Positions 35,892 through 57,411 of a DNA stretch of 64,000 nucleotides are shown here, in pieces. This DNA is from Bacillota bacterium (GTDB lineage Bacteria; Bacillota; Sulfobacillia; JAJYWN01; JAJZPE01): positions 1-64,000 of the forward strand of contig JAJYMC010000033.1 in NCBI GenBank assembly GCA_021787335.1, in the 5' to 3' direction. Every line of letters begins with the position of its first letter. Within the stretch, counting starts at the first letter, position 1. A program made the translations under genes and the position numbers. The notes under the pieces were generated by a model, which ran no database searches, was not told where the DNA came from, and worked only from the letters and a program-made list of their open reading frames with translations.

Positions 35892-37094
35892 TCAGCTCCG
35901 GAAGAGGACGCTCTCGCGCTGGAACAGGCGGCCGGCCAGGCGCAGGGCGATGACCACGTAGATGGCCGAGAAGACCAGCGTGTCACGGATGTGGGCGGGG
36001 TTGACGATGCCCATCACCAGTTCCTTGAAGGCCATCACCCCGTTCATCACCGGGACCATGTAGTACCACGACGGGATGTCGGCCGGCGAGGTGAACTCGG
36101 TGAGGATCCACGGGATGATGACGATGAAGGTGATCGGGGTGAGGTACGTCTGGGCCTCGCGGAAGCCCCGGGCGAACGAGCTGACGGTCAGCTCGATGGC
36201 GGCGAAGAAGGCCGACAGGGTCAGGGCGACCAGAAAGATCAGGCCGACCTGTGCCGCGGTCATGGTGAAGGTGACCTCCTGGCCGGGCTGCAGCGAGACC
36301 GGCGCGACCCGGAAGGCGACGGCGAAGCCGACCAGCGAAATGGCCGCGGCGATGAGTGAACTGACGACGACCACCAGATACTTACCGACAGCCAGCGACA
36401 TACGGGACACGGGGACGGTCAGGAGGGCCTCGAGGGTGCCTCGCTCCTTCTCGCCCGCGGCCACGTCGATGGCCGCGTAGAGTCCGCCGGTGGCCGCCCA
36501 CATGGCCATCAGCATCGGCAGGATCATCCCCAGGAAGGTCGCCCCCATCTGTTCCTTCGGGGCGACGTTCTCGAAGTTCATGGCCAGGGGCGTCAGGATG
36601 GTCGGGTCATACCCCCGGGCCTGCAACCTGGCGGTGACGACGGCCTGCGAGAACATGGTCAGGACGCGGGCCACCTTCTCCTCGACCATCGACGACTTGT
36701 TGTCGGAGGCGTCGAAGGCCACCCGGACCTGGGCCGGCTTCTCCTGGCGGAGGCTGTCCTCGAAGTCGGCCGGGACGTGGATGACGGTCAGGGCCTTGCG
36801 GTCCTTGAGGGCCGTGGCCGGGTCGGCCGCCACCAGGTTGAACTGGCCGCTCGCCTCGAGGTACTGGACCAGGGTGGGCGCCCGCTCGGCGCCGGCGACG
36901 ACGATGTCGGACTTGTTCCGCTGGACGTCCTCGGCCTGTTTGATGGCCGCCCGCGGGCCGATCAGGGTCATCAGCGGGACGATGACGATGGGCAGGATGA
37001 TCATCGCCCACCAGGTCCGCCGGTCGCGGATGGTGTCGCTGAGTTCCTTGGTGAAGACGATCCAGGCGTGGCGCAGGTTGATACCCCGGCTCAT
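35892..37094 (-). CDS. natB: ABC-2 family transporter permease (NatB-like)
   Basis: 400 aa with an N-terminal helix (IILPIVIVPLMTLIGP), a large extracytoplasmic domain (about 50-200) and a C-terminal block of five helices including IAAAISLVGFAVAF. This layout and the motif TVPVSRMSLAVGKYLVV are those of NatB, the permease of a Na+ extruding ABC pump. The ATPase gene natA lies upstream with ATGA overlap. Substrate could equally be a drug or lipid. Confidence 0.82.
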   Translation of the reverse strand: MSRGINLRHAWIVFTKELSDTIRDRRTWWAMIILPIVIVPLMTLIGPRAAIKQAEDVQRNKSDIVVAGAERAPTLVQYLEASGQFNLVAADPATALKDRKALTVIHVPADFEDSLRQEKPAQVRVAFDASDNKSSMVEEKVARVLTMFSQAVVTARLQARGYDPTILTPLAMNFENVAPKEQMGATFLGMILPMLMAMWAATGGLYAAIDVAAGEKERGTLEALLTVPVSRMSLAVGKYLVVVVSSLIAAAISLVGFAVAFRVAPVSLQPGQEVTFTMTAAQVGLIFLVALTLSAFFAAIELTVSSFARGFREAQTYLTPITFIVIIPWILTEFTSPADIPSWYYMVPVMNGVMAFKELVMGIVNPAHIRDTLVFSAIYVVIALRLAGRLFQRESVLFRS

Positions 37095-37810
37095 TGGTTC
37101 TGCCCCCCGATCAAGCGGAGGAAGACGTCCTCGAAGCGCTCCCGTTTGGCCTTCAGCTCGTCCATGGTCCCGGCGGCGATGAGCGCGCCGCGGTGGATGA
37201 TGGCCACGCGGTCGCAGAGCTTCTCGACCTCGCTCATGATGTGGCTGGAGAAGATGATCGTCTTGCCCTCCCGCTTGGCCCGGAGGATGAACTCGTCGAC
37301 GGCGTGGATGGCCGTGACGTCCAGGCCGGCGGTGGGCTCATCGAGGAACATCACCGGCGGGTCGTGGACCAGCGCCCGAGCGATACAGACCTTCTGCTTC
37401 ATGCCCTTGGAGAACTTGCCGACCCGGCGGTCGGCGAACTCCTTCATGTCGAGCCAGGAGAAGGCATTCTCGATCCGTTCGCGGATGGCCGTCTCAGTCA
37501 GGCCGTGCAGCCGTCCGAAGTAGGCCACGTTCTCCCTGGCCGTCAATCGGTCGTAGAGCCCCGCGTCGGAGGAGACGAAGCCGATGGAAGCCCGCACCTT
37601 CTGGGCCTCGCGGGTCACGGAAAAGCCGTTGACGACGGCGTCGCCCGAGGTCGGGCTGAGCACCGTCGCCAGGATGCGGAGGGTGGTCGTCTTCCCCGCC
37701 CCGTTCTCCCCGAGGAGTCCGAAGATCTCCCCGGGGCGGGCTTCGAAGCTGATCCGGTCCACCGCGGTCAAGTTATTGAAGCGTTTGGTCAGTTCCTTGA
37801 CTTCGACCAT
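37091..37810 (-). CDS. natA: ABC transporter ATP-binding protein (NatA-like)
   Basis: 239 aa. Walker A GENGAGKTTTLRILATVL, Q-loop IGFVSSDAGLYDRLTARENV, signature KFSKGMKQKVCIARALV, Walker B VMFLDEPTAGLDV, SSHIMSEVEKL. The start ATG has AGGAG upstream. NatA pairs with NatB in one operon that begins further up with the PspC and LiaF-like genes. Confidence 0.88.
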   Translation of the reverse strand: MVEVKELTKRFNNLTAVDRISFEARPGEIFGLLGENGAGKTTTLRILATVLSPTSGDAVVNGFSVTREAQKVRASIGFVSSDAGLYDRLTARENVAYFGRLHGLTETAIRERIENAFSWLDMKEFADRRVGKFSKGMKQKVCIARALVHDPPVMFLDEPTAGLDVTAIHAVDEFILRAKREGKTIIFSSHIMSEVEKLCDRVAIIHRGALIAAGTMDELKAKRERFEDVFLRLIGGQNQ

Positions 37811-37850: not shown

Positions 37851-38795
37851 TCAGCGAGGCTCCAAGTCGAAACTCCCGACGCCGCCGCTGTAGTCGATGT
37901 CGATCCTGGTCGCCGAGGTATCGTAATTCGGCGAGGTGTAGGTTCGCCCCTGCTTGCTGTAACCAAGGGTCCCCAGGTTGCTGCTGCCGATGCCGGTGCT
38001 GACGGTCACCCGCACCCCGGCGTTTTGGGGCACCTCGACCGTCGTCGATGCGGCCCCGGCCCTGAGCTGAACGGTCACCCGGGGCGACTTGTCGCCAAGG
38101 ACGATGGTCGTCGCCGCGGCCCCGGCGTTGTAGTGCAGCGATTCGAGCTTGTAGGCGCTGAGGTCGAGGTGGACATCCCCGGCGCCGATGTTGGCGGTCA
38201 GGTCCAGGGGCACCTGATCGGTCAGTTTGAACGTCCAGGTCTGGTTGGTTATCCCGCCGATGCCGCCGAAGCTGCGTAGGGACGACTGCCTGATGGTGAC
38301 CTGGCCGCCGTCGCCCACGATCTCGGGGCGAAGCGACTCGGGCCAATTGCGCTGGTCGAAACGGGCTTCGGCGAGGGCCGTCGAGGCCCCTCCGACCTCG
38401 AGTCGGCCGGCCGTCATCTCGATCCGGACCGCCCCGCGCGTGGCCCCGGCCGGCAGCGGCTGGCTCTTCTCGATGACCTCGGTGAACCGCGGCCCGCCCA
38501 AAGAGCCCCCGTATCCAAAGTAGAAGTGCCCATCGGCATCCCGGCCGAACCCGAGGTTCACGCCGACGATGATCACCAGGGCCACGAGAATGAGCGCTCC
38601 GAGGCCGATGTAACTGCGGCCGAAGAAGATGATGTTGAGCCCGCCGAGGATCAGGAGCAGCGGCCAGAGCTTGATGATGGCCGTCCACAGGTCCCAGCGG
38701 ATGTAGCCCAGGCTGTGCAACAGGAGGAGGACGCCGACGGCTACGACCAAAAGGCCGTTGACGACGCCTCCGACATAGCGGCGATAGTCTTTCAT
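37851..38795 (-). CDS. LiaF-like membrane protein with toastrack (DUF2154-type) domain
   Basis: 314 aa. Three or four N-terminal helices (from about 8, VVNGLLVVAVGVLLLLHSLG, to about 80) precede a beta-rich soluble domain. The helices include LWPLLLILGGLNII, typical of the LiaI/LiaF-like family; the C-terminal domain has repeated GAGxVxLDLS and GVGSFDLEPR strands of the toastrack fold. LiaF proteins restrain the LiaRS stress system. It starts with ATGA overlap on the PspC gene; no liaRS is in the window. Confidence 0.8.
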   Translation of the reverse strand: MKDYRRYVGGVVNGLLVVAVGVLLLLHSLGYIRWDLWTAIIKLWPLLLILGGLNIIFFGRSYIGLGALILVALVIIVGVNLGFGRDADGHFYFGYGGSLGGPRFTEVIEKSQPLPAGATRGAVRIEMTAGRLEVGGASTALAEARFDQRNWPESLRPEIVGDGGQVTIRQSSLRSFGGIGGITNQTWTFKLTDQVPLDLTANIGAGDVHLDLSAYKLESLHYNAGAAATTIVLGDKSPRVTVQLRAGAASTTVEVPQNAGVRVTVSTGIGSSNLGTLGYSKQGRTYTSPNYDTSATRIDIDYSGGVGSFDLEPR

Positions 38796-39259
38796 CGATG
38801 GTCTCCCCGCGTGGCGTTGTAGAGGATGTACACGCCGAACGCAACCAGGATCAAGGGCCAGAAGAGGCCCCAGGTGAACCAGGGGATGAAGTTGCGCAGC
38901 AGGAATAACAACCCCAGGCCGAGGAGCACCCAGCCGAAGATGGAGGCCGTGCCGGCCGGGGTGCAGTCCGGGCGCGCGTGCTCCGCGCCTGTCGCCGGAT
39001 GGCCGCCCGTGGGCGTGCCGCTTCCGGCGGCCCCGCCGTTCTCGGCCGTCCGGCCGTTCGGCTCAGGGACATACCCGTATGGCTCTTCCGGGATGATCAG
39101 GGCGGCGACGATGTAGGCGATCAGGCCGCTGCCGCCGGCGAAGATGGCGACCACCCAGATGAGCCGGATCAGGGTCACGTCGACGTTGAAGTAGTCGGCG
39201 ATGCCGCCGGCCACACCGGCGATGACCCGCTCATGGCGTGAACGGTAGAGTCTTCTCAT
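38792..39259 (-). CDS. PspC-domain protein with LiaI-like C-terminal helices
   Basis: 155 aa. The first 60 residues are a PspC domain (RRLYRSRHERVIAGVAGGIAD ending at a membrane helix IRLIWVVAIFAGGSGLIAYI). A Gly/Pro/Thr-rich linker is followed by two helices (GWVLLGLGLLFLLRNF and the FWPLILVAFG segment). AAGGAGAG precedes ATG 39259. PspC proteins monitor inner-membrane stress. Confidence 0.88.
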   Translation of the reverse strand: MRRLYRSRHERVIAGVAGGIADYFNVDVTLIRLIWVVAIFAGGSGLIAYIVAALIIPEEPYGYVPEPNGRTAENGGAAGSGTPTGGHPATGAEHARPDCTPAGTASIFGWVLLGLGLLFLLRNFIPWFTWGLFWPLILVAFGVYILYNATRGDHR

Positions 39260-39262
39260 GTC

Positions 39263-39472
39263 TCAACTCTCCTTACTGGGGTCGTAGTCAGGGGGTGCCT
39301 CGGGGACGATAAAGATGGCGATGATGTAGGCCAGGAGCCCCGCCCCGCCGGACAGGCCGAGGAGCACCCAGAGCACCCTGACGAGGGTGACATCGACCCG
39401 GAAGTACTCGGCGAGGCCGCCGCAGACGCCGGCGATCATCCGCTCATGTCTTGAACGATACAGTCTACGCAT
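39263..39472 (-). CDS. minimal PspC-domain protein
   Basis: 69 aa from ATG 39472 (AAGGAGAG nine bases upstream; TTG 39481 is the alternative). It is almost only a PspC domain and nearly repeats the N-terminus of the next gene (RRLYRSRHER-IAGVCGG), so the two arose by duplication. It would insert one hydrophobic helix (LWVLLGLSGGAGLLAYIIA). Confidence 0.88.
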   Translation of the reverse strand: MRRLYRSRHERMIAGVCGGLAEYFRVDVTLVRVLWVLLGLSGGAGLLAYIIAIFIVPEAPPDYDPSKES

Positions 39473-39496
39473 CTCGATCAACTCTCCTTCCCAACC

Positions 39497-45750: not shown

Positions 45751-46620
45751 TCAATGGAAGGCCAGGTTACCCGAAGTCTTCACGTCGCGCTCGATCTTCC
45801 TGAAGATGAGGTGCCCGGCGGCGACAAAGATGACCATGACCCCCAGTAGGATGGCGATCTCGATGGCCGGGGGAAGGAGGGTCGTCGTCCCCAAGAGATA
45901 ACCCCGGATGGCGTCCATGCCGTAGGTCAGCGGGATCATCAGGGACACGGTCAGGAGGATCCGTGGCAGCACCCGCACCGGGAACTGCGAACCGCTCAGG
46001 AGCTGGACCGCGTAGTTGGTCATGTCGATGACGTTGTTGGCGTTGTTGGTCACCAGGACCAGCGCCGCGATGCCAAACCCCAGGCCGTAGAGGCCGATGA
46101 GGACCGGGATCATGGTCAGCACGGCCGGCAGGAGGTAGCCGGTGAAGGAGAAGCGGAAGAGCGCCCAGGCGAGGCCCATGATGCAGAGGCTCTCGAAGGT
46201 CGTGAAGGCCAGCGACCAGAGGGAGCGCCCGACGAGCTGGACGATGACGGGCGCGGGGGTCAGCCAGTTGGTCTCGAGGACCCCCTGCCACATCTCCTGG
46301 CGAAGGGTGAACCCCATGCCCCACATGACCGAGCCGACGTACGAGCTGACCACCGCCCCGGCGATGAAGAAGGCGATGTAGTCGGAGGTCCCGGTGTAGG
46401 CCGCCAACCCCTCATTGCGGCCCCCGACCGAGAAGGCCTGAGCCATGAAGATGATTGGTAGGCCCCAGACGAACGGGTCGAGCAATGAGAAGACGAGGTT
46501 CAGCGGGTACCGGAAGTAGGCGATGAAGTCCCGCCGGAAGATGGCCCGGACGACGAGCCAGTGACGAGCCAGGGCGGAGGGCCCGGCGGAGGGCTTCGCG
46601 CGGACTTCGTTCGTATCCAT
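45751..46620 (-). CDS. ABC-2 family transporter permease
   Basis: 289 aa with six helices; the first cytoplasmic part (RAIFRRDFIAYFRYPLNLVF) and the TNWLTPAPVIVQLVGRSLW coupling segment are typical of ABC-2 permeases. It is similar over its length to the product of the preceding gene, so the pair would form a heterodimer. The start ATG overlaps the stop of that gene (TGATG). Confidence 0.88.
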   Translation of the reverse strand: MDTNEVRAKPSAGPSALARHWLVVRAIFRRDFIAYFRYPLNLVFSLLDPFVWGLPIIFMAQAFSVGGRNEGLAAYTGTSDYIAFFIAGAVVSSYVGSVMWGMGFTLRQEMWQGVLETNWLTPAPVIVQLVGRSLWSLAFTTFESLCIMGLAWALFRFSFTGYLLPAVLTMIPVLIGLYGLGFGIAALVLVTNNANNVIDMTNYAVQLLSGSQFPVRVLPRILLTVSLMIPLTYGMDAIRGYLLGTTTLLPPAIEIAILLGVMVIFVAAGHLIFRKIERDVKTSGNLAFH

Positions 46621-47489
46621 CAGTATTCCCCCAATGTGCCCTGGCTTCGAATCGTCCGTTCAGTGGCCCGGAAGGTGACCAGGCCACCGACCAGGAGGGC
46701 CAGCCCGGAGACCAGCAGGAAGACCAGGTCTCCGCTTATCGCCGCCCACCCTTGGCCGGCGACCACGGCCCGGGTGGCCTTGATCGAGTGGGTCAGGGGC
46801 AGCCAGAAAGAGACCGACTGCATCCAGAGCGGGAGGACGGCGATGGGATAGGACATCCCGCAGAAGATCATCATCGTCCCGCGGACCACGTTGACCGCCT
46901 ACTGGATCTCCTTGGCCCGCAGGACCAGGCTGGCGAAGATGAAGCCCAGCCCATAGACGCTCGGCAAGGACGCCACGAGGACGAGCGCCAAGAGGAGAGG
47001 GCTGCCGTGAACGCGGAAGCCATAGAGGAAGTAGAACTCGATCCCGCCGACGACGAGGAAGTAGGTCCACTGCGCGACGTCGGACAGGAGGCTGCCGGCC
47101 AGGACGAACCATTTCGGGACCGGCGCCAGCCAGTTGGCCTCGAGCGTCCCCCGCTGCTGCTCAGTGCGGAGGGTCGTGCCGAAGTTCCAGAGCATCGTAT
47201 TCAGCCACATCCAGAGGACGGTCCCGGTCAGGATGTAGCTCATGTAGTCCGAGGTGCCGGCGTACGCCAGGTAGGTGGCCATCCCTTCCCCGCTCGGCCC
47301 GGCCAGGGCCCGGGACGTGAAGACGTAGCCCAGCGGGAAGAGCGAGGGCCAGATGAGCATGGCGATGAACCATGACGGGTAACGGATGAAGATCTTCAGG
47401 TCTCGCCAGGCGGCCGCCCAGATGGCCGCGGCCAGCGACGGCCGGCGGAAGGCCGCCGGCCGCAAGGTCGCCGCGCTAATGGTCGACAT
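46620..47489 (-). pseudogene. ABC-2 family transporter permease interrupted by an in-frame TAG
   Basis: The first 196 codons encode helices 1-4 (LKIFIRYPSWFIAMLIWP at about 34-51, LEANWLAPVPKWFVLAG). Codon 197 (46901-46899) is TAG, directly after ...RAKEIQ. The same frame continues with AVNVVRGTMMIFCGMSYPI and the last two helices to the TGA at 46620-46622, without further damage. Counting the TAG as a residue gives 288 aa, the same size as the partner permease. A truncated product would lack the last two helices. Nonsense mutation, assembly error or suppression are possible. Confidence 0.85.
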
Positions 47490-47501
47490 TTGCTCCACCC
47501 C

Positions 47502-48575
47502 TCAGTCCCGGAGCGATTTGCCGGTCAGCTGGATGAACACGTCCTCGAGGGACGCTTCCTTGACCGTCAGGTTCTGCACGCTGTTGCCCTGTTCCAGGTA
47601 CGCCTTGATGACCGTGCCGACGCTGACTTCCAAAGGCAGGTGGATGACGACCCGCCAGGTCTCCCCGTCGGGCGGGCGCTGCGCGCTCCAGCTGGAGATG
47701 AGCCCGGCGGCCTTGAGGGTCTGGCCGAATTCGTCGCGCCACTCCCCGGCCTCGAGCTCGACCACACGCACCTGCCTGAGCTCGCGCTTCAGGTGGTCGG
47801 GGGAGTCGAGGGCGATGACCTTCCCGTGGTCGATGATGGCCACGCGGTCCGAGAGGAAGTCGGCCTCCTCCATGTAGTGCGTGGTCAGGAGGACGGTCTT
47901 CCCCTCGCTCTTGAGCTCCAGGATGAGCTCGCGGAGGTTCCGCGCGGCCTGCGGGTCCAGGCCGGCCGTGGGCTCGTCGAGGATGAGGACCTCCGGTTCA
48001 TGGAGGAGGGCCCGGGCGAGGGCGATTCGCCGCTTCATCCCCGTCGAGTACTTCTCGACCGTCTCGTCGGCCCGCTGAGACAGCTGAAACCGCTCGAGCA
48101 GGTCGCTTATCTTCTTGGTCAGGCGGGGCCCGGACAGGCCGTAGAGGGCCCCGAAGTACTGCAGGTTCTCGCGGCCGGTGAGCTTCCAGTAGACACAACG
48201 CTCGCCCGACAGGACCGTACCGATGCGGGAGAGCACCTTGGCCGGCTCCTTCTCGACCTCGAGCCCCTGGACGAGGACCCGCCCCGAGGTCGGCCGGAGC
48301 AGCGTCGAGAGCATCTTGATGGTCGTCGTCTTACCGGCCCCGTTCGGGCCGAGCAGGCCGAAGACCTCGCCCTGGGGGACGGAGAAGCTCACACCGTCCA
48401 CGGCAACAATGGTCTTGGCGCCGTTGGAGCCGTTGGCGCCGTCACCGCCATTCGTGCCGTCGGCCGCCCCGTTCTCCGGTCGACGGCTCTTCCGGAAGAC
48501 CTTGAACAGACTCCGCTTTGGCTTCGAGCGAAACTCCTTGCGCAGGTCTTCGACGACCAGCGCCGGAACAGACAT
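47502..48575 (-). CDS. ABC transporter ATP-binding protein (daunorubicin/exporter type)
   Basis: 357 aa. Walker A GPNGAGKTTTIKMLSTLL, Q-loop IGTVLSGERCVYWKLTGREN, signature KYSTGMKRRIALARALL, Walker B VLILDEPTAGLDP, LTTHYMEEADFLSDRVAI. An unusual insert of about 30 residues, basic then Gly/Asn-rich (NGGDGANGSNG), lies between the first strand and the rest of the ATP-binding core (about 14-55). It forms an exporter with the two permeases downstream. GGGGGTGG precedes ATG 48575. Confidence 0.92.
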   Translation of the reverse strand: MSVPALVVEDLRKEFRSKPKRSLFKVFRKSRRPENGAADGTNGGDGANGSNGAKTIVAVDGVSFSVPQGEVFGLLGPNGAGKTTTIKMLSTLLRPTSGRVLVQGLEVEKEPAKVLSRIGTVLSGERCVYWKLTGRENLQYFGALYGLSGPRLTKKISDLLERFQLSQRADETVEKYSTGMKRRIALARALLHEPEVLILDEPTAGLDPQAARNLRELILELKSEGKTVLLTTHYMEEADFLSDRVAIIDHGKVIALDSPDHLKRELRQVRVVELEAGEWRDEFGQTLKAAGLISSWSAQRPPDGETWRVVIHLPLEVSVGTVIKAYLEQGNSVQNLTVKEASLEDVFIQLTGKSLRD

Positions 48576-48640: not shown

Positions 48641-49000
48641 TCAGTCGACGTAGATCTCGACGTGGTCGCCGCTCTCCTCGTCGTTGATGTCGACGATCTT
48701 GCCCTGCGCGCCGGACTTGATGGCGGCCACCAGTTCGTCGACGTTGACGCCCTTGAGATAATCGGCGTTCTTGGGAACGAACCTCAAGGCCACATCGATG
48801 AGGGACAGCGGGAGGTTGACGTTGACCGTGGCCCGCCCGGACTTGGTCTCATAGACCTTGATCCGCAGGAAGTGGGCCTCGCGCCCGGTGGCCTCGGCGA
48901 CCTGCGTGGTCTCAACGGCCGAGAGGAGCTTCGCCCCTTCTTCGGCGCTGATCTTGCCGCTCTCGATCATCTTCAGGATTTGCAGCCGTTCCTCGTTCAT
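48641..49000 (-). CDS. SHOCT-like module protein, 119 aa
   Basis: Residues 3-30 form the two-helix module (LQILKMIESGKISAEEGAKL then LLSAVE) shared by six proteins of this operon. The remainder is beta-rich and ends in VDINDEESGDHVEIYVD. Similar proteins accompany DUF4097/YvlB genes in Firmicutes, with no known activity. A good GGAGG site precedes ATG 49000. It is the last gene of the DUF2089 operon, 65 bases before the exporter ATPase gene, which may be in the same transcript. Confidence 0.8.
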   Translation of the reverse strand: MNEERLQILKMIESGKISAEEGAKLLSAVETTQVAEATGREAHFLRIKVYETKSGRATVNVNLPLSLIDVALRFVPKNADYLKGVNVDELVAAIKSGAQGKIVDINDEESGDHVEIYVD

Positions 49001-49019
49001 CTGGGCTACCTCCTCTGTT

Positions 49020-49469
49020 TCATCTCAACCAGATTTCGACCCGCGTTCCGCGCCCGTCGTTCACCTCGACCAGCGGCCCGACGGCCACCAGGCTCTGGCG
49101 GACAGCCCTGATGATCGCTCGGAGCTGGGATGGGGTCAGTTCGAAGTCGTTCCCCAGACCCCACCGACGACGGCCGTACCCGTGCTGGCGCGTTCCCCAC
49201 CGCATCGCCCTTGGGGCGATCCAGCCCGCCATGGACAGACCTCCATGGACGAGGAACATGGGTAACCAGATGTTGAACCGTCGCCTCGCCCCGGCTTCGG
49301 CGATGCGGATCCCGAGCCAGTGGGCCGGCCGCGGGCGTTCCCGCCGCTCCAGTCGCCGCCGCTCCACCTCTCGATTGGTGCGCCAGCGTTCCAACTCGCG
49401 CAGGCCGGCGTCGACGGTCAGCTTCCCCGAGTCGATGGCGGCGACGACCTCTCTCACTTTCGGACTCAT
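49020..49469 (-). CDS. SHOCT-like module protein with hydrophobic middle, 149 aa
   Basis: Not recognised as a named family. ATG 49469 is chosen (GAGGGGATG upstream). The N-terminus VREVVAAIDSGKLTVDAGLR repeats the operon's helical module; a very basic stretch (RRRLERRERPRP) and a moderately hydrophobic segment (FNIWLPMFLVHGGLSMAGW) follow. The C-terminus VGPLVEVNDGRGTRVEIWLR resembles that of the neighbouring 119-aa protein (DINDEESGDHVEIYVD), which points to common descent. It may associate with the membrane. Confidence 0.7.
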   Translation of the reverse strand: MSPKVREVVAAIDSGKLTVDAGLRELERWRTNREVERRRLERRERPRPAHWLGIRIAEAGARRRFNIWLPMFLVHGGLSMAGWIAPRAMRWGTRQHGYGRRRWGLGNDFELTPSQLRAIIRAVRQSLVAVGPLVEVNDGRGTRVEIWLR

Positions 49470-49497
49470 GGAGTCATCCCCTCGCCGTTCATCCGGT

Positions 49498-50616
49498 TCA
49501 TTCAGGCTCTTCCTCTTCCAGCGCACGGAGCAGTTCCTCGGCCGCTTCCGGGGTGAGCCGCTTCTCTTCCACCATCTTCAGGATCTTGGCGATGTCCTCG
49601 TCGGCCGCGCGGGTGGCCGGTGCGCTTGGGACGGCAGGTTCCGCGGCCCACGCGCGTGAGTCGGTGAGCGGCTCGGCCGGCGCCGGCGCGAACCCCGGCT
49701 TCACCATGATGTCGCCGAGCCCGGAGCGGCAGATGATGCGGCATGAGGACCGGCCGAGGACGCCCCGCAGGAGGCCGCGCTCGGCGAATCGGTTGAGCAA
49801 CGGGAGGTCACATTCGGCCCGGCCGGCATTGGTCTCGAGGTCCAGCTCGGCCCCTGCACCGGCCGGCACGGTGACCTCGATCCGCCCGGATGCAGTGTCG
49901 AACTTGTACCGACCATCGAGTCGCGGATCGAAGTCCGCGGTGATGACGCCCCGCCCGGTGTCGACGTGGATCTGCCGCGCCTCCACCCTGGACAGATGGA
50001 CATCCCCGGTACCCGTATCAATCTCGATGTCCCCGCGGACCGCGGCGGCCTGGACGGGCCCCGACCCCGTGTCCACATGGACTTCACCATCAACCCCGAT
50101 GATCTCGACGCGGCCGCTGCCCGTATCGACCACGACCGGCCCGCCGGCGTCCTCGACGACGACGTTCCCCGAGCCCGTGTCAACGTGGACACCGGGCCCG
50201 ACCCAACTGAGGGCCACGTCACCGGAGGCCACGTCGACTTCGACGAAGCCCTCCACCCGCTCGACGCTGACACCCCCGCTGGCCGTGTCGATCTTGACCC
50301 GCGTCGACCGCGGGACCGTGATCTCCAGGTCGACCCGCGTCCCGGTCGCCGACCCGAAGAGGCCCCGCGGCGCCCCGGCGTCCACCTCCAGCCTGGACCC
50401 GTGGAGATGAGCCCTCAGGGTCAACCGGTCCAGCCGGCGACGCGCCTCATCCTCGCTGAGACCCTGGGCCCGCTTGGTCCCGCGGACGCGGGCCTCATCG
50501 CGGTCCCAGGAGGTCACGTCGACCCGTCCGACGTCCTGGTCGACCTCGAGCCGCCCCCCGGAACGGAGCGGGAAGACCTGTTCCCACACATCGGTGCGCT
50601 CGAGCCTATCGCTCAT
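49498..50616 (-). CDS. DUF4097 beta-repeat protein with C-terminal SHOCT-like module
   Basis: 372 aa. The central region is a run of short beta strands with repeated VDTGSG/IDTGTG turns (at least six), the DUF4097 beta-helix pattern. No signal peptide or membrane helix is present, so it is probably cytoplasmic or membrane-peripheral. Residues about 341-366 (IAKILKMVEEKRLTPEAAEE) carry the helical module, here at the C-terminus rather than the N-terminus. GGAGGG precedes ATG 50616. Relatives such as LiaX and YvlB act in envelope stress responses. Confidence 0.85.
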   Translation of the reverse strand: MSDRLERTDVWEQVFPLRSGGRLEVDQDVGRVDVTSWDRDEARVRGTKRAQGLSEDEARRRLDRLTLRAHLHGSRLEVDAGAPRGLFGSATGTRVDLEITVPRSTRVKIDTASGGVSVERVEGFVEVDVASGDVALSWVGPGVHVDTGSGNVVVEDAGGPVVVDTGSGRVEIIGVDGEVHVDTGSGPVQAAAVRGDIEIDTGTGDVHLSRVEARQIHVDTGRGVITADFDPRLDGRYKFDTASGRIEVTVPAGAGAELDLETNAGRAECDLPLLNRFAERGLLRGVLGRSSCRIICRSGLGDIMVKPGFAPAPAEPLTDSRAWAAEPAVPSAPATRAADEDIAKILKMVEEKRLTPEAAEELLRALEEEEPE

Positions 50617-50664
50617 CTTCGCCTACCCTCCCGCGGGCAGACCTTGTTCCCCTGATGGGCCGGC

Positions 50665-50973
50665 TCAACGTCTGACGAAGCTGCCGATCACGGCCGCGAC
50701 GCCCAGGGCCCCCAGGGTGAGGAAGCACGTCGCCCAGAACCCGAAGTGGAAGTAGATGCCGGCGAAGATGCCGCCGCCGATGGCCAGCATCATCAGACCG
50801 TCGGCGAAGTGATGCCCGTCGAACCACCGGTGCTCGTCGGCGCGGTACAGGCCGCTCTTGATGAGGGCCAGGGTCTTGAGATGACCCAGCACCGCCAGGG
50901 CCAAGAAGAAGCCGAGGACCGAGAAGAAGATCGTCAGGAACAGTTGTGTGTTGGTGACCATGAATTCGACCAT
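50665..50973 (-). CDS. small membrane protein with three helices, 102 aa
   Basis: Not recognised. Hydrophobic segments at about 10-33 (LFLTIFFSVLGFFLALAVLG), 58-75 (MMLAIGGGIFAGIYFHFG) and 79-98 (TCFLTLGALGVAAVIGSFV), joined by a loop holding DEHRWFDGHHF. The His-rich loop could bind metal but this is speculation. GGAGGGGAG precedes ATG 50973. It lies between two DUF4097 genes and is the only clear integral membrane protein of this operon. Confidence 0.7.
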   Translation of the reverse strand: MVEFMVTNTQLFLTIFFSVLGFFLALAVLGHLKTLALIKSGLYRADEHRWFDGHHFADGLMMLAIGGGIFAGIYFHFGFWATCFLTLGALGVAAVIGSFVRR

Positions 50974-51104
50974 TGTCCGTCTCCCCTCCGTATGAACCCT
51001 CTGGTCTGTCTCTGGTTATGGCTCGGCGCGGGCCGAAGCGCCTTCACGGGCTGTTCGGGCGCTCCGGCCCGGCCGTTCACACATGTTCTCCCCGCCGCCG
51101 GGGC

Positions 51105-52151
51105 TCAGACCGATCGGCTGACGACCACGGACCCGTTCGAGGTCCGGGCCGAGATGTAGATGCGGCGGGCTTTACCGTCGAACCCGGTGGTCCGGGCCTT
51201 GGACCTGCGGTGGCCCATCTGCCGCTCGTGGACGCTGTACTCGAGGTCGGGCAACTCCAGCTCGACGTGGCCCATCGAGGTCGAGGCGTCGATGTCGTAG
51301 CCGCTGTCGGCCTGCTCGTCCGGGCGGACCCGGATGCTGCCGTTGGAGGTCCGGAGCTGGAGGCGACTTTCGCCGCCTGAAGCGCCGAAGGGGACCACGG
51401 TGATCGAGCCGTTGGAGGTATCCGCGTCCAGGTCGCGGGCTGAGCAGTTGGCGATGATGCGGCCGTTGGACGTTCGCAGCCGGACCTTCTCGCCGGTCGA
51501 ACGCTCGCAGACGACGCGGCCGTTAGAGGTCTGGGCCTCGACGACCTCGGTCCGCAGGCCGTCCAGCTCGATGCGGCCGTTGGCGGTGCGTAGGTCCAGC
51601 CGGTACAGATGACTGGTCGGCAGGCTCAACTCGGCGGCCACTCCGCTGTTGTTCCACCCGCTGATGCGGGACTCGAGGACGAGTCCGGTGGGCGTGGCCG
51701 TGAAGCGGACCATCTCCTGAGCCCGGCGCCGCGCCTCTTCCTCGCCGGGACCACGCAGGCTCTTGATCACCCTCAGGTGGTAGTCCGGGCGGTCCCAGCC
51801 CTTGAGGACCAGGCGACCGTTGGATGTGTTCATCTGGATGGTCACCGGCCGGCCCTCAGTCGGCTCGAACCGGCCCCCATGCTCTTCCTCGAACTTGTAG
51901 GTCTCACCGAAGAGACCGAACCGGAGATTGATGCCGCCGAAGCCGTCGATGACATCCTCCAGGATGGACTTGGGTCGTGGACCGCGATCCTGATCCCACT
52001 CCTCGCGGGGTGGCGCCTGAGCCCCCGAGCCGGCCCGCGGGCCGGCTTCCTTGGCCGGTTGCCCCAGAGCCTTTAGAAGCTCCACGCCTTCCTGAGGGGT
52101 GATCTTCCCCTCCTGGACCATCTTCAGGATAGCCATTCGTTCCTCTTGCAT
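51105..52151 (-). CDS. DUF4097 protein with N-terminal SHOCT-like module (YvlB-like)
   Basis: 348 aa. Residues 4-31 are the helical module (RMAILKMVQEGKITPQEGVE); a Pro/Gly-rich linker follows, then the DUF4097 domain with repeated TSNGR/TSNGS turns about every 20 residues, and a final ISARTSNGSVVVSRS strand. This N-terminal module plus DUF4097 order is that of Bacillus YvlB and enterococcal LiaX. GGAGGG precedes ATG 52151. Confidence 0.88.
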   Translation of the reverse strand: MQEERMAILKMVQEGKITPQEGVELLKALGQPAKEAGPRAGSGAQAPPREEWDQDRGPRPKSILEDVIDGFGGINLRFGLFGETYKFEEEHGGRFEPTEGRPVTIQMNTSNGRLVLKGWDRPDYHLRVIKSLRGPGEEEARRRAQEMVRFTATPTGLVLESRISGWNNSGVAAELSLPTSHLYRLDLRTANGRIELDGLRTEVVEAQTSNGRVVCERSTGEKVRLRTSNGRIIANCSARDLDADTSNGSITVVPFGASGGESRLQLRTSNGSIRVRPDEQADSGYDIDASTSMGHVELELPDLEYSVHERQMGHRRSKARTTGFDGKARRIYISARTSNGSVVVSRSV

Positions 52152-52252
52152 CTTTCAACCCTCCTAAGCTCCCGATGGCGGGTCTCTTCTCCCCTTCCCT
52201 CCATCGCTGGAGACTGTCAACCACGTCAAGCCAGGCTGCGGTTCACGGCGCG

Positions 52253-53446
52253 TCAGTCGTTGACGGTGATGTCGCCGCCTCCCGTCCGTGCCTTCACCCG
52301 GGCCTCCCCGGTGCCGATCCGGCCGACCAGCTCCCGTTCGGAGCGGTGCTTGGTCTCGCTCAGGCGCAGGTCACACGTGACGTCGCCGCCGTCGGAGACC
52401 AGGTCGAGGGCGGCCGAGGCGTCGGCCGGCATGAACAGGACGACGTCACCCCGTCCGGCCACGAGTTCGCTGGATGTGCCGGCGGCCGGCCGGAGGCTGG
52501 CGGTGACATCACCGTGCTCGGCCGTGAGACGGGCCTCGGGCACCGGGTCCTGGACGGTCACGTCGCCGTGGCGGCTGATCGCCTTGACCGGACCGCCCGC
52601 CCGTTCCACGTCGATGTCTCCATGCTCGGTCGAGAGGTCGAGCGCGGAGGTCGGTCCCATGACGGTGATGTCGCCGAGGTCACCATGGACCTCGACCCTG
52701 GCGTCGGCCGGCACCTCGACTTCCAGGTCGACCGAACCCCGCGGGCTGGACGAAGCCCGGCCGAGGTCCACCCGGACCGTGACCGACTCCCGGTCGCCTT
52801 CCGTCCGGACGGTGATGGCCGAGCAGCGGGCCACGGCCTCGCTCGGGTCGGCCCCGCGGGCCGATTTGTCCGCCTCGACCCGGACGATCCCGGGCGCGCC
52901 GGCCTTGATGGTGATGTCCCCGACCGGGTCGATGACGGTGACCCGGGCGCCTGCGTCGACTTTGTGTTCGAGGAAGATGGTCTCATTGTGGCCGGACCAC
53001 CAGCCGCCGAGGCGGGCGGCCCGGAGCCCTTCCCGGACGCCCCGCATGGCCTCGCGGAGACCCGTTCCCAGGCCCTCGCGGAGACCGTACCGCATCCCTT
53101 CGAGACCTTCCCTGAGGCCGCGCATGCCCTCGTCGATGCCGTCGCGGACGGCCTCGCTGATCTCCGAGCCGAGGTCCCAGTCGTCATCGTCTTCATCCCG
53201 GCGACGTTCCGGTCCGCCCTGGCCGCCATTGCCGGTGGCCGACCCGGGCTCCCTGCCCGGGGCCGTCGCGGTGTGAGCGGTGTGAGCGGTATGCGCGGAT
53301 TGCGCGGATCGCGCGGGTTCCGCCGGCGCGACCGCCGCCCGCTGTTCGTCCTCTTCGCCCAGGGCCTTCAAAAGCTCGGCGGCCTCTTCCTCGGTGATCC
53401 GCCCGCTCTTGTGCAATTCCTCGATGAACCGGCGTTCCTCGTCCAC
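52253..53446 (-). CDS. DUF4097 protein with N-terminal SHOCT-like module and amphipathic repeats
   Basis: 397 aa from GTG 53446, just after the stop of the DUF2089 gene and 6 bases after GGGAGGG. The module is RRFIEELHKSGRITEEEAAE. An Ala/His/Thr-rich and then acidic linker leads to a repeated segment MRGLREGLEGMRYGLREGLG (unit about 11 residues, four to five copies), likely an amphipathic membrane- or protein-binding helix. DUF4097 strands follow with EHGDI, RHGDVTV, EHGDVT and RGDVV turns. Confidence 0.85.
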   Translation of the reverse strand: MDEERRFIEELHKSGRITEEEAAELLKALGEEDEQRAAVAPAEPARSAQSAHTAHTAHTATAPGREPGSATGNGGQGGPERRRDEDDDDWDLGSEISEAVRDGIDEGMRGLREGLEGMRYGLREGLGTGLREAMRGVREGLRAARLGGWWSGHNETIFLEHKVDAGARVTVIDPVGDITIKAGAPGIVRVEADKSARGADPSEAVARCSAITVRTEGDRESVTVRVDLGRASSSPRGSVDLEVEVPADARVEVHGDLGDITVMGPTSALDLSTEHGDIDVERAGGPVKAISRHGDVTVQDPVPEARLTAEHGDVTASLRPAAGTSSELVAGRGDVVLFMPADASAALDLVSDGGDVTCDLRLSETKHRSERELVGRIGTGEARVKARTGGGDITVND

Positions 53447-53447
53447 C

Positions 53448-53909
53448 TTAGTCCCTCCCGGTCTCGGTGTCGTCGTCCGTCTTTTCCTCGTCAAGCGGTT
53501 TGGCCGCCTCTGTTTCGTCAGCCGCGCCGGTGGGCAAGGACGCCTTGGACTTCAGCAGTTTCACTGCGTCCTCGGCGGAGATGCGACCGGACTTGAGGGC
53601 CTCCAGGACCTCGCGACGGCGGGAGGCCCCCCCCGTGTCCTCGGGGACCGGTTCGGCCCGGTAGCCCAACGCCTGGATGACCGCCTCGAGGCGGCCCCTG
53701 ACGGTCGGGTAGGAGATGCCCAGCTCCCGCTCGACCTCTTTGATGTTGCCGCGCGCCTTGAGGAAGACCTCTACGAAGTCGAGCTGGTCGCGGGTCAGGG
53801 CGTCGAACTTGGTGCCCCCGAAACGCCCTTCGATGGTCGTCTCACAGTGCGAGCAGTGTAGGCGGGTGATGTCGAGCTTTTCGTGGCAGACCGGGCACCG
53901 CCCGGGCAT
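53448..53909 (-). CDS. DUF2089 regulator: zinc ribbon, HTH and C-terminal SHOCT-like module
   Basis: 153 aa from ATG 53909 (GTG 53924 possible). The zinc ribbon is CPVCHEKLDITRLHCSHC, then LTRDQLDFVEVFLKARGNIK and a helix-turn-helix VERELGISYPTVRGRLEAV. After a linker the module RREVLEALKSGRISAEDAVK appears. DUF2089 proteins are predicted transcription regulators. As first gene of the DUF4097 operon, directly behind a sigma-A promoter, it is the likely autoregulator. Confidence 0.88.
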   Translation of the reverse strand: MPGRCPVCHEKLDITRLHCSHCETTIEGRFGGTKFDALTRDQLDFVEVFLKARGNIKEVERELGISYPTVRGRLEAVIQALGYRAEPVPEDTGGASRRREVLEALKSGRISAEDAVKLLKSKASLPTGAADETEAAKPLDEEKTDDDTETGRD

Positions 53910-53989
53910 TCTCCGCTTCTCCACAGGACCACCCCGTTTTCACCGAACATTTAAGGGACTGGTTTAATATCCTTAAGGTCTCACTTCAA

Positions 53990-54018
53990 AGAATAAAGGA
54001 TGGCATTCGTTCTGTCAA
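53990..54018 (-). promoter_or_regulatory. sigma-A promoter of the DUF2089-DUF4097 operon
   Basis: On the minus strand TTGACA (54018-54013), a 17-base spacer and TATTCT (53995-53990). Start near 53983. The leader contains TTAAGG and CCTTAA arms (53951-53956 and 53971-53976), a possible operator. Confidence 0.82.
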
Positions 54019-54083: not shown

Positions 54084-54305
54084 TCAGTTGGCTCGGTTCT
54101 GGCCTGAGCGCCGCACCTTGACCAGCTCGACCTTCATCGGCGAGTGGCTGATGGCGCCCAGCAGACCGGCGAGGACATCGGCTTCCTCGCGGGCGGCGAT
54201 GACCAGCGGGCAGGTGTCGAGCACCTTGGCCTGGCCGGTCGATTCGACGTACCGCAGGACGTCCTCAGACAGATCACCGTGATAGAGGACCTCGATGGTC
54301 TCCAT
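54084..54305 (-). CDS. unknown small protein, 73 aa
   Basis: Not recognised. ATG 54305 is chosen because GGAGGTGA lies 7 bases upstream; the frame stays open to 54407 and a GTG near 54398 after AAGGAG is an alternative giving about 31 more residues. The protein reads METIEVLYHGDLSEDVLRYV, then a Cys-containing strand VLDTCPLVIAAREEADVLAG and a basic end. The alternating strand-helix pattern and single Cys suggest a small ferredoxin-like or regulatory fold, without proof. It has a very strong promoter (54495-54523). Confidence 0.6.
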   Translation of the reverse strand: METIEVLYHGDLSEDVLRYVESTGQAKVLDTCPLVIAAREEADVLAGLLGAISHSPMKVELVKVRRSGQNRAN

Positions 54306-54494
54306 CCCGCGTTCACCTCCGTAAGACTTCCTAAGACCAGCATCAGTGCGTTCCATTCGAGCGAAGGGCAACGCGACCGACATCGAAAAGGTGGTCACGG
54401 TCTTCATCTCCTTCTTAAAGCCCTGGCGGTTCTGTGACTCCCCGTCCGCCGGGCGGATTACCGGAGGGTTAACATCCTTACCCTTCCGATTGAC

Positions 54495-54537
54495 ATTGTA
54501 AACCCACCCCCTTAATATGTCAAGGCACCCCCTTAAA
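54495..54537 (-). promoter_or_regulatory. strong promoter with an 11-base direct repeat
   Basis: On the minus strand TTGACA (54523-54518), a 17-base spacer and TACAAT (54500-54495). TTAAGGGGGTG occurs twice with a 21-base period: once just upstream of the -35 (54536-54526) and once inside the spacer (54515-54505). Two helical turns between copies fits a dimeric or tandem regulator. The leader to the next start is about 180 bases. Confidence 0.8.
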
Positions 54538-54616
54538 TTTCATGAACCCCTCCAATGATCAGCCGCCGTCCCTGGGGTGTTTTTCGTTTGACCAGCTATC
54601 TGCCCCTTGAACGCAC

Positions 54617-54995: not shown

Positions 54996-55526
54996 TCAAC
55001 CGCGGCTGCCCCGAGCCCGGTCGGCCTCCATCGCGAGCAGGCGGCGCTTCATCGGCAGCCCGCCACCGAACCCGCCCAGGCCTCCGCCGGAGGCCAGGAC
55101 CCGGTGGCAGGGGTGGACGAGCGGGACCGGGTTGGTTGCCATGACCTGTCCCACGGCCCGGGCCGCGCCCGGGCTGCCGACCTTTGCCGCCAGCTCCCCG
55201 TAGGTCACCGTCGACCCGTAGGGGATGGCGGCACAGGCGTCATGCACGCGCCGCTGGAAGTCCGTCAGCTTGATGTCCGCGGCGTGCCGGGCGAGGTCGA
55301 CCCGGTCCCCGGCGAAATACCGGCGCAGGTCGGCCTCCAGGGACGCGAAGGCCCCCGGGTCCTCGGCGGCGTCGGGGTACGCCCGGCGGGCCTCATCGAC
55401 CGCCTCCCGCCGGCTGCCCTTCGGCAGGGTCAGGTAGCGAAGCCCTCGGTCGGAACGCACGGCGGCCTGCCAGCCAAAGCCCGCGTCGAAGGCGGTCCAA
55501 CGGAGTCTTTCCTCACTGCTTCCCAT
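54996..55526 (-). CDS. ogt: methylated-DNA--protein-cysteine methyltransferase
   Basis: 176 aa from ATG 55526 (GGAGGAG 7 bases upstream), overlapping the uvrC end by 14 bases. The DNA-binding helix is in YGELAAKVGSPGAARAVGQV and the acceptor Cys in the PCHRVLASGG motif. It removes alkyl groups from O6-alkylguanine in a single-turnover reaction. Coupling to uvrC makes a DNA-repair pair. Confidence 0.95.
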   Translation of the reverse strand: MGSSEERLRWTAFDAGFGWQAAVRSDRGLRYLTLPKGSRREAVDEARRAYPDAAEDPGAFASLEADLRRYFAGDRVDLARHAADIKLTDFQRRVHDACAAIPYGSTVTYGELAAKVGSPGAARAVGQVMATNPVPLVHPCHRVLASGGGLGGFGGGLPMKRRLLAMEADRARGSRG

Positions 55527-57411
55527 TCGGTACTCCTCCCTCGGTCTCGGCATGCAGTCTCGAATAGATGATCTCGGCCACGGGCGCGGGAAGGCCCTCG
55601 ACCGACTTTATCTCGTCCAACGTGGCCCGTCGGAGCCCGGCCACCGACCCGAAGCGCCTCAGCAGCATCGTGCGCCGACGGGGACCGATGCCCGGGATGT
55701 CGTCGAGGACGGACCGCAGCGTCCGCTTCTTTCGGACGAGGCGGTGGTATCCGATGGCGAAGCGGTGGGCCTCGTCCCGGACGCGCTGGACCAGGAAGAG
55801 GGCCTCCGAGCCGCGTTGCAAGATGATTGGTTCTCTCCGGGCCACGCCGAAGAGCCACTCGTTCTCCTTGGCCAGACCGAAGGTCGGGATGCCGGCCAGG
55901 CCAAGGCCCTCGAGGACCTCACGGGCCGCGGACAGTTGCCCCTTGCCCCCGTCGACGATGATCAGGTCGGGCAGGACGGCGAACTTCGGGGCCCCGGCGG
56001 CCCTCTCCTCGCGCTCACGAAGCCCCCGGCGGTAGCGCCGGCCGATGACCTCGGCCATCATCGCGAAGTCGTTCGGCCCCTCGACCGTCCTTATCTTGAA
56101 GCGGCGGTAGTCCTCTTTCTTCGGCCGGCCGTCCTCGAAGACGACCATCGAGCCGACCGCCTCCGCCCCCTGGATGTTGGAGATGTCGAAGCACTCGATG
56201 CGCCGCGGGGGCTCGTCGAGGCCCAGCTCCCGGGCCAAGTCGCGGAGGGCGTCGCCGGTCTGCTCCTGCTCCCGGGCGCGCTCGGCCAGCCGCTCCTGCA
56301 TCGAAACCCGGGCGTTCTCGGTCGCCAGCTCGACCAGGCCGCGTTTCTCGCCCCGCTTGGGCTGGATCAGCCGGACCTTCTCGCCGCGCCGCGAGCTGAG
56401 CCACTCTTCGATGAGCTCCGCTTCGGGCACCGGCTCCGGCACAAGGACCTCTTTGGGGATGAAGGATGCCTGGGCATAGAACTGCTTGACGAAGGCGGTG
56501 ATGACGTCCGACCCGGCCTGGTCCTCGGCTCCGCTGAGGAGGAACCCCTCGCGCCCGACCAGGCGGCCCCCGCGGATCTGGAAGACCTGCACCGAGGCCT
56601 CGTCGCCGTGGCGGGCGAGGGCCACGACGTCCTGGTCCTCCATGCCGGTCGAGATCATCTTCTGCCTCTCACTGACCTGCTCGATCGCCTTCATCTGGTC
56701 GCGGTGCTCGGCGGCCCGCTCGAAGTCCAGGGCCTCGGCCGCCTCGTCCATGCGGTGCCGCAGCCGGTCCGTGATATCCTGCGTGCGGCCTTCCAGGAAG
56801 AGGCAGAGTTCCTTGACCATCGCCTTGTAGTCGGCCGCGGAGACCATCCCCCGGCACGGACCCAAGCAGCGGTGGACGTGGTAGTCGAGGCAGGGACGGG
56901 TGACCGACTGGAACTTGTGGTCGCTGCAGATGCGGAAGGGAAAGACCCGACGGATGGTGCGCAGCGTGTCCCGGACCGCGTCCGGATGGGTGTAGGGTCC
57001 GAAGTAGAGGGCCCCGTCGCGCCTCATCGACCGAGCGATGGTGACCCTGGGGAACGGCTCGTTGGGGTCCACCCTCAGGTACGGGAAGTGCTTGTCGTCC
57101 TTAAGCCGGACGTTGAAGTACGGGTGGTGCTCCTTGATCAGGTTGGACTCGAGGATGAGGGCCTCGACCTCGGAATCCGTCCGGACGAACTCGAAGTCCC
57201 GGACCTGGGCGACCATGGTCAGGGTTCGGGGGTTGAGGTTGCGGGAAGACTGGAAGTATTGCCGCACGCGGTTCCGCAGCGAGCGGGCCTTCCCGATGTA
57301 GATGATCCGGCCTTCCTGGTCCTTGAACAGGTAGACCCCGGGCTTGGCCGGGAGCCTGGCCAGCTTGGCTTCGATGGCTTCGTCGGGAGCAGGCCGGCCG
57401 TCCTCAGGCAA
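55513..57411 (-). CDS. uvrC: excinuclease ABC subunit C
   Basis: 632 aa. GIY-YIG nuclease domain at the N-terminus (GVYLFKDQEGRIIYIGKARS), a Cys cluster region (CSDHKFQSVTRPCLDYHVHR), the UvrB-binding UVR motif (FERAAEHRDQMKAIEQV), the RNase H-like 5' nuclease domain (IECFDISNIQGAEAVGS) and a C-terminal helix-hairpin-helix pair (DDIPGIGPRRRTMLLRRFG). It makes both incisions during nucleotide excision repair. TTG 57411 follows GGAGGGTGA. Confidence 0.97.
   Translation of the reverse strand: MPEDGRPAPDEAIEAKLARLPAKPGVYLFKDQEGRIIYIGKARSLRNRVRQYFQSSRNLNPRTLTMVAQVRDFEFVRTDSEVEALILESNLIKEHHPYFNVRLKDDKHFPYLRVDPNEPFPRVTIARSMRRDGALYFGPYTHPDAVRDTLRTIRRVFPFRICSDHKFQSVTRPCLDYHVHRCLGPCRGMVSAADYKAMVKELCLFLEGRTQDITDRLRHRMDEAAEALDFERAAEHRDQMKAIEQVSERQKMISTGMEDQDVVALARHGDEASVQVFQIRGGRLVGREGFLLSGAEDQAGSDVITAFVKQFYAQASFIPKEVLVPEPVPEAELIEEWLSSRRGEKVRLIQPKRGEKRGLVELATENARVSMQERLAERAREQEQTGDALRDLARELGLDEPPRRIECFDISNIQGAEAVGSMVVFEDGRPKKEDYRRFKIRTVEGPNDFAMMAEVIGRRYRRGLREREERAAGAPKFAVLPDLIIVDGGKGQLSAAREVLEGLGLAGIPTFGLAKENEWLFGVARREPIILQRGSEALFLVQRVRDEAHRFAIGYHRLVRKKRTLRSVLDDIPGIGPRRRTMLLRRFGSVAGLRRATLDEIKSVEGLPAPVAEIIYSRLHAETEGGVPNGKQ

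Follow-up and report, generated by a model that had tools for sequence, protein, structure and literature searches.

A two-helix module shared by a DUF2089 regulator, Toastrack proteins and small proteins of an envelope-stress operon: a candidate docking element

Introduction

The occurrence of SHOCT-like domains on both DUF2089 and Toastrack (DUF4097) proteins, together with the operonic association of these proteins, was described by Ravi et al. in 2024, who view Toastrack as a cytoplasmic assembly platform (PMC11237479). No established function for SHOCT-like domains was found in the literature searched. In Bacillus subtilis, YvlB interacts in two-hybrid assays with other proteins of the yvl operon, with PspA and with LiaH (PMC9239133), and LiaZ of Enterococcus faecalis is a holin-like membrane protein of 118 aa (PMC11601895). 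Elements of a similar build are known from trans-AT polyketide synthases, where docking domains of about 25 residues and two helices occur as N- and C-terminal partners (PMC9113145, PMC12097012); the pairs have fixed partners and measured Kd values of around 3-5 uM (PMC12097012).

Here we describe an operon of the LiaXYZ/YvlBCD envelope-stress type in a Bacillota genome (GCA_021787335.1), located in a window of 64,000 nucleotides that comprises positions 1 to 64,000 of contig JAJYMC010000033.1. Its DUF2089 regulator and five further proteins carry one and the same kind of helical module.

The operon and its six modules

A preliminary description had placed six copies of a two-helix module in the proteins encoded at 48641-53924, and all six are present there on the minus strand, one in each protein (Table 1); three of the carriers belong to DUF4097. 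Pfam PF22746 (SHOCT-like_DUF2089-C) matches five of the modules, with those of P0003, P0005 and P0007 above the Pfam cut-off of 27 bits and those of P0001 and P0002 below it, the latter two reaching E ~1e-9 or better with a profile built from family relatives. The sixth, in P0006, is degenerate and is not detected by PF22746; its N terminus scores 8.5 bits against the family profile, compared with at most 4.3 for 2,000 shuffled versions of the same sequence. The modules had been expected to align significantly with one another, and this was borne out for five by the Pfam or family profiles and for P0006 by a score above that of every shuffle. Because the remainder of P0006 belongs to the C-terminal S domain of P0007 (E ~3e-8; 28.6 bits vs 7.1 for the best shuffle), P0006 is a paralogue of P0007, and the six modules are therefore not six independent acquisitions. 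Orthologues of P0006 were found in all three genomes of the family.

Clear copies of the module are confined to this locus. Across the whole genome (3.55 Mb), PF22746 has five matches at E<=0.01, all in the operon, and the next match, at E 0.78, was taken as noise. The DUF2089 protein and the PF13349 proteins of the operon are likewise the only ones in the genome.

Table 1. Coordinates of the operon genes, their modules and the candidate control sites, in positions of the window
Feature	Position	Strand	Evidence
DUF2089 regulator P0002, 158 aa	53448..53924	-	Pfam PF22747 + PF09862
P0002 module, C-terminal, regulator class, net charge +3	53550..53618	-	PF22746 E ~1e-4 to 2e-4, 21.5 bits
Toastrack DUF4097 protein P0001	52253..53446	-	PF13349 E 1e-13, 51.8 bits
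P0001 module, N-terminal	53345..53440	-	PF22746 E ~0.0015 to 2e-3, 18.4 bits; family profile E 5e-10
Toastrack DUF4097 protein P0003	51105..52151	-	PF13349 E 1e-7, 31.6 bits
P0003 module, N-terminal	52059..52145	-	PF22746 E 7e-11 to 1e-10
P0004, small protein, ~3 hydrophobic stretches, likely TM	50665..50973	-	sequence
Toastrack DUF4097 protein P0005	49498..50616	-	PF13349 E 3e-16, 60.2 bits
P0005 module, C-terminal	49507..49599	-	PF22746 E 1e-7 to 9e-7
P0006, small protein, divergent P0007 paralogue	49020..49469	-	S-domain profile E ~3e-8
P0006 module, degenerate, N-terminal, residues 6-27	49389..49454	-	family profile 8.5 bits
P0007, small protein, module + ~85-aa S domain	48641..49000	-	no Pfam model for S domain
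P0007 module, N-terminal	48908..48994	-	PF22746 E ~1e-11 to 2e-11
ABC-2 type exporter cassette	45751..48575	-	ATPase 47502-48575; permeases 46899-47498, 45751-46620
PF04020 holin-family membrane protein, LiaZ/YvlD type, 118 aa	45331..45687	-	PF04020 E 6e-34
Sigma-70-like promoter TTGACA-17-TATTCT	53990..54018	-	consensus match; shuffles give 0.8 per region
Candidate operator ACCTTAA-N5-TTAAACC-N4-CCTTAA	53951..53979	-	directly downstream of -10 box

In the order of transcription the genes are those of P0002, P0001, P0003, P0004, P0005, P0006 and P0007, followed by the ABC-2 cassette and the PF04020 gene. P0002 consists of a zinc ribbon, a LuxR/GerE-like HTH and the C-terminal module. P0001 starts at a GTG codon preceded by GGGAGGG, and an amphipathic helical stretch separates its module from the Toastrack domain. 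All three DUF4097 proteins exceed the PF13349 cut-off of 22.9 bits. The operon is wider than the module set of 48641-53924, with P0004 inside it and, probably, the exporter and PF04020 genes beyond 48641. P0004 has neither a module nor a Pfam match and is kept in the operon of the family relatives and in one further locus (L045); since it is module-free yet lies within the operon, belonging to the operon does not require a module. The ABC-2 cassette has the same place in the same-genus genome and was dropped as a core part because the sister genus lacks it. In most loci with a PF04020 gene, it comes shortly after the module genes.

The surroundings yielded further observations. A conserved 107-aa protein of unknown function is encoded between ogt and the DUF2089 gene (54084-54407, minus strand), and uvrC (55513-57411, minus strand) is a stable landmark, lying upstream of the DUF2089 operon in many of the Bacillota loci mapped. 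In the same-genus genome, the operon contains a second ABC exporter cassette (L031, G044:C43, 10395-14229) between the gene for the Toastrack protein with a C-terminal module and the P0006 orthologue.

Conservation of the gene plan

PF22746 has matches at E<=0.01 in 47 of the 61 genomes of the class. Gene maps were drawn for 40 regions anchored on PF22746 and for 80 further loci anchored on the small (S) protein, and a recurrent plan of DUF2089, Toastrack and S genes emerged. Named records with this plan come from Bacillota (among them the same-genus record JAJZPE010000010.1), mainly from Chloroflexota and, as single cases, from elsewhere. A DUF2089 gene is present in 37 of the 40 PF22746-anchored regions and in 70 of the 80 S-anchored loci, where it always precedes the other module genes. 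Of the ten S-anchored loci lacking it, seven are truncated at their start, which lies ~200 bases or less from the first module gene. The module is C-terminal in DUF2089, N-terminal in S proteins and at either end in Toastrack proteins. Two to four modules were detected in most S-anchored loci, and the set of six is an expanded version that this operon shares with the two family relatives.

None of 369 module proteins contains two modules, and natural fusions were not found among them; one module per protein is what would be expected of an intermolecular element. In two loci, an N-terminal module is fused to long repetitive amphipathic helices (L059, 7703-8326; L060, 7417-8223, the latter weakly apolipoprotein-like), in a protein that occupies the slot after DUF2089 where other loci have Toastrack.

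Two classes of module

The modules fall into two separable classes that follow the type of protein. Partner modules, at either terminus, have a consensus of approximately EERxxILKMxEEGKIxAEEAxxLLxAL, and regulator modules one of approximately ERRxxILDxLxxGxIsAEEAxxLLR. Position 9 is Met in 192 of 237 partner modules vs 1 of 96 regulator modules, and position 8 is basic in 158 of the 237 partners and acidic in 63 of the 96 regulators. Classification with one locus left out at a time was correct for 98/100 regulators and 240/261 partners. In partner modules, positions 4 and 9 are also hydrophobic, in addition to the hairpin core, a feature that the DUF2089 module lacks.

The mean charge of partner modules is -1.6 to -2.2, and regulator modules are near neutral (+3 in the window), a combination that agrees better with hetero-pairing than with self-pairing. 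In a helical-wheel projection, positions 8 and 12 point away from the hydrophobic core; the charge swap is thus a mark of class and no proof of an interface. No charge co-variation between regulator and partner modules was detected across loci (rho 0.06, p 0.55), and column mutual information between modules was set aside because it is confounded by relatedness. Homogenisation of modules within a genome was considered and rejected: the identity of regulator and small-partner modules from the same locus is 0.388 vs 0.400 when permuted. Such modules are no more alike than those from different loci, which argues against recent copying between them.

Predicted structures

The AF2 model of P0002 has a mean pLDDT of 83, and its module is confidently predicted as a two-helix hairpin (helices 97-112 and 117-125, pLDDT ~82-93). 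That of P0007 is predicted to form helices 3-14 and 19-37, with a pLDDT of 72-84 over the first 30 residues. The P0002 HTH is closest to the DNA-binding domains of VraR and LiaR (VIA-align Z 7.8 and 7.3), but other LuxR-type HTHs score equally well. The S domain of P0007, which has no Pfam match, is predicted as beta-beta-alpha-alpha-beta-beta with a pLDDT of only 59-70; with this model, Foldseek returned nothing at E<=0.001 and VIA Z scores did not exceed 4.0. In searches of the PDB, P0003 alone and P0007 alone returned nothing, and the best matches of the S-family profile, designed TIM barrels, were taken as chance.

Long amphipathic helices between module and Toastrack domain occur in P0001 and in some Toastrack proteins with C-terminal modules. 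In some S-like proteins of Chloroflexota (such as L117, L124 and L140), a pair of hydrophobic and likely TM helices separates the module from an S-like domain, an arrangement that would probably put the module at the membrane.

With a profile of the six modules, the best match in the PDB was the MlnE docking domain (5d2e residues 8-34; E 0.0038), a match that was lost with a profile of 34 modules (E 0.5). A follow-up profile comparison with hhalign gave 96%, for a set whose sequences had been selected because they matched. Given the two E values, we treat the sequence link as a lead only and do not claim membership of the polyketide synthase docking-domain family.

Promoter and candidate operator

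Only one sigma-70-like promoter was found in the 45.2-54.5 kb interval, and it precedes DUF2089. The candidate operator downstream of its -10 box is the single match in the genome at <=3 mismatches (control 0) and is kept in the same-genus and sister-genus genomes (L031 and L032). Its position suits an autorepressor, and from this position and its conservation in the three related genomes only we infer that DUF2089 may bind it. Upstream of the DUF2089 genes of all loci, the only enriched words that stood out were -35-like TTGACA words.

The region upstream of the 107-aa protein gene (54440-54545) contains TTAAGG/CCTTAA half-sites resembling those of the candidate operator, as well as a promoter-like site, TTGACA-17-TACAAT, on the minus strand.

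Envelope-stress neighbours

Some 10 kb further downstream than the last module gene, the same strand carries two PspC genes (39263-39481 and 38792-39259, minus strand), the only clear ones in the genome, and a gene for a LiaF-like protein (37851-38795, minus strand). The PspC gene at 38792-39259 additionally encodes a LiaI-LiaF-like TM region. PspA is encoded on another contig of the genome. The stretch 37851-39481 on the minus strand is a second Lia/Psp-type gene group in the window, and an ABC exporter (35892-37810) follows it.

It had been suggested that an assembly based on the module could sense the state of the envelope, with the beta-repeat domains as sensors. The PF04020 gene of the LiaZ/YvlD type, the PspC and LiaF-like neighbours and the two-hybrid results for YvlB (PMC9239133) speak for an envelope-stress setting; the beta-repeat domains are putative sensors.

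A docking proposal and its rivals

What the sequences show is a set of shared modules in two classes, a conserved operon with a candidate promoter and a candidate repeat, and neighbours of the stress type. On balance we lean towards a proposal in which the shared hairpin docks DUF2089 to membrane-proximal Toastrack and S proteins within an autoregulated stress circuit. DUF2089, with its zinc ribbon and LuxR-type HTH, would replace a two-component regulator, and the SHOCT-like module would be its docking element. Each protein would contribute one hairpin, and the hairpins of two proteins would pair into a small helical bundle. The Toastrack and S proteins would thereby hold DUF2089 in a complex close to the membrane, which may be contacted through the 3-TM, PF04020 and PspC partners; in Chloroflexota, S proteins with a TM anchor may take this part. 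Changes at the membrane would alter which hairpins pair with that of DUF2089, and with it the action of DUF2089 at the operator. We infer that hairpins pair, that the partners control DUF2089 and that the operon regulates itself, and likewise infer the signal. The preliminary description had seen the module as one element linking the regulator with its effectors; the conserved operons, the limit of one module per protein and the leading position of a regulator with a C-terminal module agree with this, and pairing is the conjectural part of the claim. The one published oligomerisation test of a canonical SHOCT domain among the papers found, in which self-association was not observed (PMC3581485), counts against docking, as do the lack of charge co-variation across loci, the loss of the MlnE match with 34 modules and the module-free P0004 within the operon.

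The main rival, which we think unlikely, is that the module attaches proteins to the membrane, so that they would meet at the inner leaflet without contact between modules. Membrane attachment was predicted for SHOCT-like domains by Ravi et al. in 2024 (PMC11237479), and would make use of the extra hydrophobic residues at positions 4 and 9 of the partner modules; the DUF2089 module, however, lacks these residues, the acidity of the partner modules suits anionic lipid poorly, and the S variants with two TM helices retain a module that would be redundant. It is improbable that the module is instead a tag by which an outside partner (a protease adaptor, PspA or another hub) recognises all six proteins. 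That each protein has a single, similar tag at a free end would be in keeping with this, as would the binding of PspA and LiaH by YvlB (PMC9239133) and the presence of a PspA in the genome, but a single receptor reading all copies would not be expected to face a regulator module that differs systematically from the others, and no candidate receptor is conserved in the operon. About as improbable is the view of the modules as leftovers of shared descent, in which duplication within an old operon multiplied a hairpin cap that serves no common interaction: P0006 and P0007 are paralogous, the Toastrack proteins are homologous and charge co-variation is absent, yet the module is found at either end of three unrelated folds (DUF2089, Toastrack and the S domain) and on helical proteins, is strongly conserved across two phyla, has not spread beyond the operon in this genome, and is no more alike between regulator and small partner within a locus than between loci.

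The docking proposal can be widened to an operon-wide code. In it, a two-class hairpin family, one member to each protein, would build a stress complex close to the membrane, and exchange of partners would control a one-component transcription factor; polyketide synthases would have taken up the same kind of element for subunit docking. We offer this as a speculation that we ourselves doubt. Should the pairing prove real, it would account for the way in which Toastrack stress proteins, relatives of LiaX and YvlB, reach transcription without a histidine kinase, would apply to many Bacillota and Chloroflexota and would yield compact natural docking parts. The rule of one module per protein, seen across two phyla, makes the older guess on the module testable, and the operon is a clean test case, with one regulator module, five partner modules, two classes and one promoter.

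Comparison with known systems

The preliminary description cited YvlB and LiaX as single relatives, with no comparable set of six. The module itself is already Pfam PF22746 and published, and in the passages of Ravi et al. consulted (PMC11237479) DUF2089 is split, as here, into a zinc ribbon, an HTH and a SHOCT-like domain, with Toastrack partners and SHOCT-like domains at either end. The six-member set is apparently not set out in those passages, nor apparently are the near-constant S family, the one-module rule, the regulator-first order, the two module classes, the TM-anchored S proteins and the candidate operator. Canonical SHOCT domains (Eberhardt et al. 2013, PMC3581485) are similarly short two-helix terminal domains on unrelated proteins, but their Pfam model has no match at E<=1 in any of the seven operon proteins.

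The closest mechanical parallel is docking in trans-AT polyketide synthases (VirA-VirFG, MlnB-MlnC and MlnD-MlnE), in which a double-helix pair or four-helix bundle is formed. The likeness extends to the ~25 residues, the two helices, the location at protein termini and the single element per chain end; here, by contrast, the N- and C-terminal modules form one family, and their pairing is presumed.

From LiaXYZ of Enterococcus and YvlABCD of Bacillus the operon differs in its DUF2089 regulator, where control there is by LiaFSR, and in having three Toastrack and two S proteins vs one LiaX; its proteins miss the cut-off of the NCBIfam dapto_LiaX model (37.7 of 350 bits). PspC (LiaY/YvlC) is not beside a Toastrack gene here, but ~10 kb from the nearest one of the operon. 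Common to these systems are a Toastrack protein with a SHOCT-like N terminus, a nearby PspC, the envelope-stress setting and a same-strand PF04020 gene of the LiaZ/YvlD type, which follows the ABC cassette here and, at 118 aa, matches LiaZ in length.
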